Source of the DNA: Candidatus Magasanikiibacteriota bacterium
GTDB taxonomy: Bacteria > Patescibacteriota > Patescibacteriia > Magasanikbacterales > UBA922
DNA: 33,145 nt
NCBI GenBank assembly: GCA_014729395.1
Contig: WJJZ01000007.1
Location: forward strand, 1 to 33,145
Direction: 5' to 3'
The translations under genes and the position numbers were made by a program. The notes under the pieces are model-generated. The model did no database searches. It was not told where the DNA came from and saw only the letters and a program-made list of their open reading frames with translations. Every line of letters begins with the position of its first letter. The first letter of the stretch is position 1. Shown here in pieces: positions 2,411 through 21,987 of the stretch.

Positions 2411-2482
2411 GCGGACGTCGTATAATGGTTATTATCTCGGCCTTCCAAGCCGATGATGCCGGTTCGATTCCGGTCGTCCGCT
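2411..2482 (+). tRNA. tRNA-Gly(TCC)
   Basis: Cloverleaf GCGGACG...CGTCCGC+T; anticodon arm TCGGC-CTTCCAA-GCCGA; CCA not encoded. Confidence 0.93.
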
Positions 2483-2584
2483 CGAGAGAAAAATATTCAG
2501 ATTAAAAAAACTGTTTACAAAGCACAATTTTTCAATTTTAGTATTCTTGCCCGGCGTAGCCGCAAGCGAAGTCGAGGGGCGAAG

Positions 2585-2603
2585 ACGGGTCGTCCGCTCG
2601 AGA
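2585..2603 (+). repeat. Copy of the tRNA-Gly(TCC) 3' terminus plus flank
   Basis: GGTCGTCCGCTCGAGA at the 3' end of the tRNA-Gly gene (about 2472-2487) recurs at about 2587-2602. Confidence 0.7.
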
Positions 2604-2604
2604 C

Positions 2605-2632
2605 TTGAAAAAAAATGTGATTCAAGTATAAT
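2605..2632 (+). promoter_or_regulatory. Putative sigma70 promoter of the initiator tRNA transcript
   Basis: TTGAAA (2605-2610), 16 nt spacer, TATAAT (2627-2632). Confidence 0.65.
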
Positions 2633-2640
2633 GTAGTCTA

Positions 2641-2746
2641 CAATCAAATATCGCGGGGTAGTCCCGACAAGGTCGGGACGTCGGGCCCTGTTACAATCAA
2701 ATATCGCGGGGTAGTCCCGACAAGGTCGGGACGTCGGGCCCTGTTA
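2641..2746 (+). repeat. Two tandem 53-bp units carrying a truncated initiator-tRNA 5' half with embedded palindrome
   Basis: Units at 2641-2693 and 2694-2746: CAATCAAATAT + CGCGGGGTAG + TCCCGACAAGGTCGGGA + CGTCGGGC + CCTGTTA. A third CAATCAAATATCGCGGGGTAG at 2747 continues into the intact tRNA-fMet. Confidence 0.95.
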
Positions 2747-2757
2747 CAATCAAATAT

Positions 2758-2834
2758 CGCGGGGTAGAGCAGTCAGGCAGCTCGTCGGGCTCATAACCCG
2801 AAGGTCACCGGTTCGAATCCGGTCCCCGCAACCA
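2758..2834 (+). tRNA. Initiator tRNA-fMet(CAT)
   Basis: CGCGGGGTAGAGCAGTCAGGCAGCTCGTCGGGCTCATAACCCGAAGGTCACCGGTTCGAATCCGGTCCCCGCAACCA; C1-A72 mismatch, three G-C pairs in the anticodon stem, encoded CCA. Confidence 0.97.
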
Positions 2835-2866
2835 CGAAAAGTGGCGATTCTGTAGCCACTTTGAGT

Positions 2867-2900
2867 GGTCGCGTGGGCACGTAAGTGCCTTTACGCGACC
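2867..2900 (+). other. Strong hairpin in the tRNA spacer
   Basis: GGTCGCGT-g-GGCAC-gtaa-GTGCC-tt-ACGCGACC. Confidence 0.7.
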
Positions 2901-2953
2901 GTAAACATAGACAAAAAAGATGCCACTTCGTGGTAAACCAATTTTGTCACAGT

Positions 2954-3027
2954 GCGGTAGTAGCTCAGTTGGCTAGAGCGTCTCCTTGCCAAGGAGAAGG
3001 TCGCCGGTTCGAATCCGGTCTACCGCT
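2954..3027 (+). tRNA. tRNA-Gly(GCC)
   Basis: GCGGTAG...CTACCGC+T; anticodon arm TCTCC-TTGCCAA-GGAGA. Confidence 0.95.
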
Positions 3028-3033
3028 CAGATA

Positions 3034-5703: not shown

Positions 5704-5709
5704 ATGTCG

Positions 5710-5777
5710 TCGGAGTGAAAGGACTTGAACCTTCGGCCTCCTGCTCCCAATCCCGACAAGTCGGGACTAGCCAACTA
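5710..5777 (-). pseudogene. Broken tRNA-Pro copy with internal palindrome
   Basis: 5710-5750 is identical to 5803-5843 of intact tRNA-Pro; then TCCCGACAAGTCGGGA replaces AGCAGGCGCT; then CTAGCCAACT matches and homology ends. Confidence 0.9.
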
Positions 5778-5802
5778 ATAATAATTCCATTGTTAGATTT
5801 AG

Positions 5803-5876
5803 TCGGAGTGAAAGGACTTGAACCTTCGGCCTCCTGCTCCCAAAGCAGGCGCTCTAGCCAACTGAGCTACACTCCG
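5803..5876 (-). tRNA. tRNA-Pro(TGG)
   Basis: Reverse complement CGGAGTGTAGCTCAGTTGGCTAGAGCGCCTGCTTTGGGAGCAGGAGGCCGAAGGTTCAAGTCCTTTCACTCCGA; loop TTTGGGA. Confidence 0.94.
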
Positions 5877-5884
5877 CGTGTTAG

Positions 5885-5956
5885 TGCCGGGGGTGAGAAT
5901 TGAACTCACGACACGAAGATTTTCAGTCTTCTGCTCTACCACTGAGCTACCCCGGC
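5885..5956 (-). tRNA. tRNA-Phe(GAA)
   Basis: GCCGGGG...CCCCGGC+A; anticodon arm GAAGA-CTGAAAA-TCTTC. Confidence 0.95.
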
Positions 5957-5960
5957 CTAG

Positions 5961-6033
5961 TGGACTGTGCGAGAGTCGAACTCGCGACCTCCTGCGTGCA
6001 AAGCAGGCGCTCTACCAACTGAGCTAACAGCCC
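5961..6033 (-). tRNA. tRNA-Ala(TGC)
   Basis: GGGCTGT/ACAGTCC acceptor with G3.U70, anticodon arm CCTGC-TTTGCAC-GCAGG, A73. Confidence 0.95.
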
Positions 6034-21430: not shown

Positions 21431-21446
21431 ATTTGTATTATATTAG

Positions 21447-21533
21447 CGGAGAGGGGGAGATTCGAACTCCCGAGCCGATTGCTCGACTAACACTTTTCGA
21501 GAGTGCCCCGTTCAACCACTCCGGCACCTCTCC
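21447..21533 (-). tRNA. tRNA-Ser(CGA)
   Basis: Reverse complement GGAGAGGTGCCGGAGTGGTTGAACGGGGCACTCTCGAAAAGTGTTAGTCGAGCAATCGGCTCGGGAGTTCGAATCTCCCCCTCTCCG; long variable arm; loop CTCGAAA. Confidence 0.95.
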
Positions 21534-21561: not shown

Positions 21562-21625
21562 ACAGGGCGAGAGTGGCGCCTTCAACCAGCTCAGCCACTC
21601 CTCCATTTTTAAGGATTTATTTTTT
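21562..21625 (-). repeat. 64-bp perfect direct repeat (copy 1) containing a tRNA-Ser-like 5' half
   Basis: ACAGGGCGAGAGTGGCGCCTTCAACCAGCTCAGCCACTCCTCCATTTTTAAGGATTTATTTTTT, identical to 21924-21987; reverse complement contains GGAGGAGTGGCTGAGCTGGTTGAAGGCGCCACTCTCG. Confidence 0.97.
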
Positions 21626-21869
21626 GTAATAAATCACGTAATTGCATTTTTAATAGTCGTTTACCTTCCGTAGTCTTCAAAAATTTTTCTCTTCTTTTTG
21701 CATCAGATTTTTCTACATAAGCTTCGTAGTGGATCAATTTTATAGGCCTTCTATTTTTTGTTGATTTTACACCACCTGTTCTGTGTTGTTTATATCGTGT
21801 TTTGAGTTGACTGGTAAATCCTGTGTAAAGTTGATTATTGGAAAGTAGTAGAATATAAACGTAATACAT
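21609..21869 (-). CDS. GIY-YIG nuclease family protein (UPF0213/URI-like)
   Basis: 86 aa; YYVYILLLSNNQLYTGFTSQLKTRYKQHRTGGVKSTKNRRPIKLIHYEAYVEKSDAKRREKFLK. Confidence 0.95.
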   Translation of the reverse strand: MYYVYILLLSNNQLYTGFTSQLKTRYKQHRTGGVKSTKNRRPIKLIHYEAYVEKSDAKRREKFLKTTEGKRLLKMQLRDLLQKINP

Positions 21870-21898
21870 AATTTAAATAATATAACTTTTCGCCCGTC

Positions 21899-21942
21899 AT
21901 GCGACGGGGCGCCCTGTCGAATGACAGGGCGAGAGTGGCGCC
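21899..21942. repeat. Twin palindromes next to the tRNA-Ser half (copy 2)
   Basis: CCCGTC-atgc-GACGGG-type and GCCCTGTC-gaat-GACAGGGC hairpins. Confidence 0.75.
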
Positions 21943-21987
21943 TTCAACCAGCTCAGCCACTCCTCCATTTTTAAGGATTTATTTTTT
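21924..21987 (-). repeat. 64-bp perfect direct repeat (copy 2) containing a tRNA-Ser-like 5' half
   Basis: Identical to 21562-21625; overlaps the 3' end of the TrpR-like CDS. Confidence 0.97.

Follow-up and report, generated by a model that had tools for sequence, protein, structure and literature searches.

The GIY-YIG locus and its flanking repeats

The window, by which we mean the whole 33,145-nt stretch of DNA analysed, carries a single-domain GIY-YIG nuclease gene between two direct repeats, upstream of an intact tRNA-Ser(CGA) gene (Table 1). A preliminary description of this locus made from the sequence alone had listed most of its features, and these were confirmed. The repeats are identical at 64 of 64 positions with a spacing of 362 bp; on the minus strand each contains a tRNA-Ser 5' half, GGAGGAGTGGCTGAGCTGGTTGAAGGCGCCACTCTCG, that breaks off after the CG of the CGA anticodon; copy 2 leads into twin GC-rich palindromes; the repeats form the 3' ends of the GIY-YIG and TrpR-like ORFs, which they overlap by 17 nt and 9 nt respectively; and the intact tRNA-Ser(CGA) lies 28 nt from copy 1. 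Searched by blastn, the genome yielded no further full copy of the 64-mer, and the GIY-YIG ORF is absent from this locus in relatives. We also looked for the window's own empty site through synteny of xth or the TrpR-like gene with tRNA-Ser(CGA) in relatives, where these flanks are not conserved.

Table 1. Features of the GIY-YIG locus and of ORF-less footprints in the window.
Feature	Coordinates	Strand	Remarks
GIY-YIG nuclease ORF	21609..21869	-	86 aa (86 codons), single domain; model pLDDT 94
64-bp direct repeat, copy 1	21562..21625	-	also codes for end of GIY-YIG CDS
64-bp direct repeat, copy 2	21924..21987	-	also codes for end of TrpR-like CDS
Broken tRNA-Ser 5' half, copy 2	21930..21966	-	37 nt, to CG of anticodon; opens complete unit
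Broken tRNA-Ser 5' half, copy 1	21568..21604	-	followed by CCCTGT; read as remnant, second unit without ORF
Palindrome 1, CGCCCTGTCATTCGACAGGGCG	21910..21931	.	anticodon loop of broken copy
Palindrome 2, CGCCCCGTCGCATGACGGGCG	21891..21911	.	second of the two palindromes that copy 2 leads into
Intact tRNA-Ser(CGA)	21446..21533	-	retained downstream
Footprint without ORF: tRNA-Pro(TGG) 3' half and hairpin TCCCGACTTGTCGGGA	5709..5766	-	after intact tRNA-Pro (5802-5876)
Footprint without ORF: two tandem 53-bp broken tRNA-Met 5' copies and hairpin TCCCGACAAGGTCGGGA	2650..2755	+	before intact tRNA-Met (2758-2834)
16-nt repeat of tRNA-Gly(TCC) 3' end and flank	2588..2603	+	beyond hairpin-rich insert

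Beyond the palindromes comes CGAAAAGT, which matches the continuation of a tRNA anticodon arm; the palindromes thus appear to interrupt the anticodon loop, though with 8 nt the match is only suggestive. Copy 1 still carries six hairpin nucleotides, the initial CCCTGT, and so resembles the beginning of a second unit whose ORF is gone. Most plausibly, each 64-mer opens one of two tandem units built from TrpR tail, tRNA-Ser half, hairpin and GIY-YIG ORF: unit 1 comprises the tRNA-Ser half, two hairpins and the GIY-YIG gene, while unit 2, its ORF gone and its hairpin reduced to six bases, stands before the intact tRNA-Ser(CGA). On this reading the TrpR tail would belong to the native flank, and the duplication would have supplied the final codons of the GIY-YIG ORF. 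Unlike most sister loci, the window's tRNA-Ser half has only 78% identity to the adjacent tRNA-Ser(CGA) over its 37 nt.

The preliminary description had also proposed that one repeat plus the ORF forms a minimal tRNA-associated mobile cassette. The mobile cassette gained support from recurrence at many tRNA genes, from filled and empty orthologous sites, and from the tandem pair at locus L084 of a relative, where two complete 344-bp units are followed by an intact tRNA-Trp. The unit itself had to be redrawn and is better described as a broken tRNA, a hairpin and a GIY-YIG ORF adjoining an intact tRNA.

Recurrence in the host genome and in relatives

A search with the window protein found nine small GIY-YIG genes in the 1.01-Mb host genome, which is Magasanikbacteria-like (Patescibacteria); eight of these genes adjoin tRNA genes (Ser-CGA, Trp, Asp, Ser-GGA, Ala-GGC, Ser-TGA/GCT, Leu-CAA and Ile-TAT). 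In four of these cases (Trp, Asp, Leu and Ile) the ORF has the intact tRNA on one side and a broken version of that tRNA on the other. The remaining gene, L008, falls in another GIY-YIG clade and has no tRNA beside it. Hairpin footprints that contain no ORF are present at tRNA-Pro, Met, Gly, Leu, Arg and Glu, so the ORF is not required for each footprint.

At L006 (1162-1396), 16 nt made up of the tRNA-Ser(TGA) 3' end and its flank are repeated around a hairpin-rich insert of ~190 nt without an ORF. At L025 the ARAGORN call is tRNA-Cys(gca); position and sequence suggest a tRNA-Pro(TGG), part of which is repeated internally.

Of 46 family genomes searched with a profile, which like all genomes used here appear to be metagenome-assembled, 43 gave matches. 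Judged by named records, these genomes stand close to Magasanikbacteria. We built a protein tree from 138 GIY-YIG domains (83 columns), many forks of which are unresolved. It places 32 domains, in two YhbQ/UPF0213-like control clades, apart from the window subfamily (SH-aLRT 95). In the window subfamily 85 of 106 genes lie within 350 bp of a tRNA gene, all on the same strand as the tRNA, vs none of the 32 control genes at a tRNA on the same strand (Fisher p 1e-17); about 2.8 tRNA-adjacent genes would be expected from the tRNA density in a 384-kb sample of the host genome. The other 21 genes are found at tmRNA (7), at 16S rRNA (1), at a tRNA cut by the contig end (1), at contig edges (5) or with nothing near (7). 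We rejected assignment of the window gene to the YhbQ/UPF0213-like housekeeping type, since it falls in a separate clade and sits at a tRNA. A wider, named set spanning the CPR has 80 loci, 49 of them beside a tRNA gene and again without exception on its strand, and 26 show a broken copy; this set includes a few non-CPR MAGs, among which contamination is possible. The arrangement recurs at nearly every tRNA kind in related bacteria of the ultra-small CPR group and is a real, general phenomenon.

It is extremely unlikely that repeated tRNA sequence created this arrangement during assembly. Several copies do lie at contig ends, but many are deep in long contigs, for example in G040 (6 contigs) and in contig C6 of the host genome, and the same architecture is found in many unrelated assemblies.

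Draft contigs of G035, G041, G042, G048 and G049 often break at GIY-YIG/tRNA units, which suggests that these repeats fragment CPR assemblies.

Broken tRNA copies and hairpins

A tRNA match on the far side of the ORF is present in 65 of 89 tRNA-adjacent cases, with the intact tRNA downstream in 46 and the mirrored order in 19. The broken copy is usually of the same tRNA as the intact one; some of the matches counted are short or cover only the flank, and some are to an adjacent tRNA of a different kind. The break ends (n=116) fall mainly in the D arm or loop (39), the anticodon loop (31) and the T loop (17). Strong GC palindromes occur in 40 of 61 broken stretches vs 80 of 1220 background windows. 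Several broken copies, such as those at L119 (positions 1-34|35-58) and L089 (13-35|36-48), pick up the tRNA sequence directly after the insert, which indicates that the inserts are clean, and at L097 and L003 a 30-nt double hairpin lies inside the D loop. Apart from the window locus, broken copies are 98.1% identical to the local intact tRNA vs 91.2% to the best match in another genome, and thus derive from, or stay equal to, the local gene.

Hairpins were assigned to CCCGA/TCGGG or CCGCC/CTGCC types, classes that we defined after inspecting the data. Hairpin class tracks protein clade, with 5 changes on the tree vs a shuffled mean of 11.7 (minimum 8), and the split holds inside one genome (G000), where Ile differs from Asp, Trp and Leu.

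This tracking would also fit a reading in which the hairpins, including the 30-nt double hairpins, are the true mobile elements, REP- or MITE-like and resident in tRNA loops, with GIY-YIG as a helper nuclease and the ORF loci as master copies. The host genome has three exact copies of the 30-mer double hairpin TGCGCCCAAGGCGCACCCGCCTCGGGCGGG, all at the T-loop position, two of them at tRNA-Arg and one at a tRNA-Asp copy, and the ORF-less footprints at six kinds of tRNA point the same way. Those footprints, however, could be decayed cassettes; hairpin sequences vary widely, 21 of the 61 broken stretches have no strong hairpin, and certain of these palindromes are also found at places in the genome that have no tRNA nearby. 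We consider this reading tenable but rather unlikely. Short twin hairpins regarded as mobile are found in the double-hairpin elements of fungal mitochondria, from which the present hairpins differ in being bacterial, in the loops of broken tRNA copies and beside a nuclease gene. REP repeats have as their helper a RAYT (REP-associated Y1 transposase), and the likeness is that of genome-scattered palindromes paired with a clade of nuclease-like proteins; here, however, the protein is GIY-YIG, no Y1/HUH enzyme was seen in the cassette, and the sites are tRNA loops. Assignment to REP/RAYT or IS200/IS605 elements was rejected on the ground that the ORF of the unit has a GIY-YIG domain only and no HUH Y1 transposase.

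Integrative elements at tRNA genes likewise lie between an intact and a partial tRNA copy, and in prokaryotes they commonly leave partial copies behind (PMC9897764). On this account tRNA genes would be general hot spots of recombination and integration, and the GIY-YIG ORFs and broken tRNAs would be unrelated leftovers of integrase-borne elements. We find this very improbable, as the ORF is typically the sole gene in the few hundred bp that separate intact from broken copy, two sister GIY-YIG clades of these genomes never occur at tRNAs on the same strand, and breaks occur in all three loops. The cassette differs from integrative elements in its size of ~300 bp, in having no integrase in the unit and in the hairpins in the loops of its broken copies. 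An integrase-borne island was rejected for the window, where the unit holds one ORF, the GIY-YIG gene; sister loci were scanned for GIY-YIG and tRNA.

Filled and empty sites

Orthologous loci with and without the ORF were compared. At tRNA-Leu(CAA) in one genus, the tRNA of three genomes (G042, G043 and G044) stands between an upstream and a downstream gene, and G045 has, between the same flanks, a broken tRNA-Leu (positions 1-36), a hairpin-bearing stretch, the ORF and an intact tRNA-Leu. A motif that is promoter-like by eye, TTTTTCGCTATAGTA, is conserved ahead of this tRNA and in G045 stands ahead of the broken copy. At tRNA-Ile(TAT) in another genus the ORF is present in G046 and G049 and absent from G009 and G047, while hairpin-broken copies are found in all four. 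The linkage of lgt to tRNA-Ser(GGA) is kept in many relatives, and the ORF is there only in G000 and G008. Two clusters in the window itself have no ORF where relatives do: Ala-Phe-Pro (5709-6033), with a GIY-YIG ORF in three relatives, and Gly-Met-Gly (2411-3028), with one in eight. The presence and absence at orthologous sites expected of a homing gene is thus seen at Leu(CAA), Ile(TAT), Ser(GGA) and the Pro and Met clusters.

Target isotypes cluster on the protein tree (43 changes vs 74.4 +/- 1.8 when shuffled). Host genus does not (70 changes vs 71.1 shuffled). The nuclease clades therefore sort by tRNA and not by genus, which is the target specificity across hosts expected of homing genes.

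The GIY-YIG protein

The window ORF matches the Pfam GIY-YIG family (PF01541, E 3e-14) and has no other domain. The active-site residues Y5, Y15, R25 and E61 are invariant in the alignment, as in members of the GIY-YIG superfamily, and the structure, predicted with a pLDDT of 94, has a fold that matches UPF0213, Slx1 and I-TevI. Among solved structures the closest in fold are UPF0213 and Slx1, a structure-selective nuclease, so the protein may recognize stem-loop structure, not sequence. Most unsaturated pairs have a dN/dS of 0.12-0.32, with 0.51 and 0.60 in two Asp-clade pairs; the low values indicate purifying selection for protein function. Several ORFs of the set have internal stops, as expected for a decaying selfish gene.

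Purifying selection would also be expected of a host factor that acts on tRNA and tmRNA (in processing or decay, or in the manner of an anticodon nuclease) and is encoded beside its substrate. Such a factor would be consistent with the same-strand linkage to tRNA, tmRNA and, once, 16S rRNA, and with a stable tmRNA-ORF-infC order. It accords poorly with the patchy presence of the gene at orthologous loci, the internal stops, the broken tRNA copies and the occupation of nearly all isotypes in turn, and we judge it improbable.

Members at tmRNA and 16S rRNA

The seven tmRNA-linked members (L020, L022, L032, L063, L079, L086 and L101) form one clade and lie between tmRNA and infC, and no tmRNA fragments were found at these seven loci. 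This target-specific clade could be vertically inherited. At L060 (429-2231, minus strand) a GIY-YIG ORF lies within a 16S rRNA gene, in the loop of an extended 19-bp stem in the V3 region; this insert adds ~270 nt and has no intron match.

A structured repeat of ~110 nt (CCACGAAAAGTGGC..TTTGAGTGGTCGCGTGG..TTTACGCGACC..GCCACTTCGTGG) is present in the window at 2834-2940 (plus strand), where it begins at the CCA end of a tRNA. The same repeat is found after tRNA-Ser(TGA) in L006 and after tmRNA at all seven tmRNA-linked loci, and it is tandem in some loci. A search of the tmRNA loci that carry it against Rfam at the gathering threshold gave tmRNA matches only.

Comparison with known systems

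We rejected a group I or group II intron, since Rfam at the gathering threshold gave only tRNA matches in 17 loci. A phage vehicle was rejected as well: among IMG/VR contigs there was one relative, and phages gave only remote GIY-YIG proteins.

GIY-YIG genes have been reported in the CPR from rRNA-gene insertions, which are not group I or II introns and for the most part occupy the tip or the base of stem-loops in the rRNA (PMC11270868). That survey does not mention tRNA and places GIY-YIG outside homing spread, citing its rarity and poorly conserved sites (PMC11270868). The cassette shares with these insertions its hosts and the lack of introns, and L060 is one such insertion; the main sites of the cassette, however, are tRNA genes, and its proteins are target-specific.

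The nearest working analogue is SegB, which offers a tested precedent for GIY-YIG enzymes cutting tRNA genes. SegB of T-even phages is reported to cut inside tRNA genes at the motif RAWTSGAAC and to drive tRNA amplification by recombination (PMC13096335). In our own reading the complement of this motif, GTTCSAWTY, fits the T arm. The T4 segB gene lies between tRNA-Arg and tRNA-Ile on the strand of the tRNA genes, and, like the cassette gene, it is a free-standing GIY-YIG gene on the same strand as its flanking tRNA genes. SegB differs in having 221 aa, of which only the first motif resembles the window protein, and in residing in phage genomes; broken tRNA copies and loop hairpins are not described in the accessible text of that report (PMC13096335). 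Membership of the SegB family was rejected, as homology over the length of SegB is absent (BLASTP E 0.12; hhalign probability 25% over 19 columns).

A proposed mobile element family in tRNA genes

Residence at tRNA genes, duplication of the tRNA, breaks with hairpins in its loops, gain and loss at orthologous sites and target specificity are established at the level of sequence. On these grounds the cassette is well supported as a mobile, tRNA-targeting, free-standing GIY-YIG element of the homing type, and possibly as something more. We think it probable that the loci belong to a family of minimal mobile elements at home in tRNA genes, whose nuclease is predicted to cleave its target. The nuclease would cut the tRNA gene in or near a loop, and recombinational repair would install the cassette together with a second tRNA copy, so that one copy remains functional. 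The hairpin insert would destroy the cut site in the other copy, thereby protecting the occupied locus. At loci with a downstream intact tRNA, transcription of the ORF may start from the tRNA's own promoter, with the tRNA cut out of the joint transcript.

A bolder proposal, which we offer tentatively and hold to be rather doubtful, is a transposition system confined to tRNA-gene loops. It would consist of a single-domain GIY-YIG protein and its cognate hairpins or double hairpins, with ORF-less hairpin units as non-autonomous partners; it would use no transposase, integrase, reverse transcriptase or ribozyme, and a functional tRNA would be rebuilt at each visit.

We found no report of tRNA-linked GIY-YIG genes in the CPR in the open-access literature, which points to an element family that is apparently undescribed. 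If the mobile-element reading is correct, tRNA genes would be a common home of CPR GIY-YIG genes, until now reported there solely from rRNA inserts, and at ~300 bp and one gene the elements would be among the smallest autonomous selfish elements known. They would account for the clusters of pseudo-tRNAs and hairpins near tRNA genes in streamlined genomes and would be a source of small, tRNA-isotype-specific nucleases with predicted cut sites. How an element manages to live inside essential RNA genes would thereby become testable.
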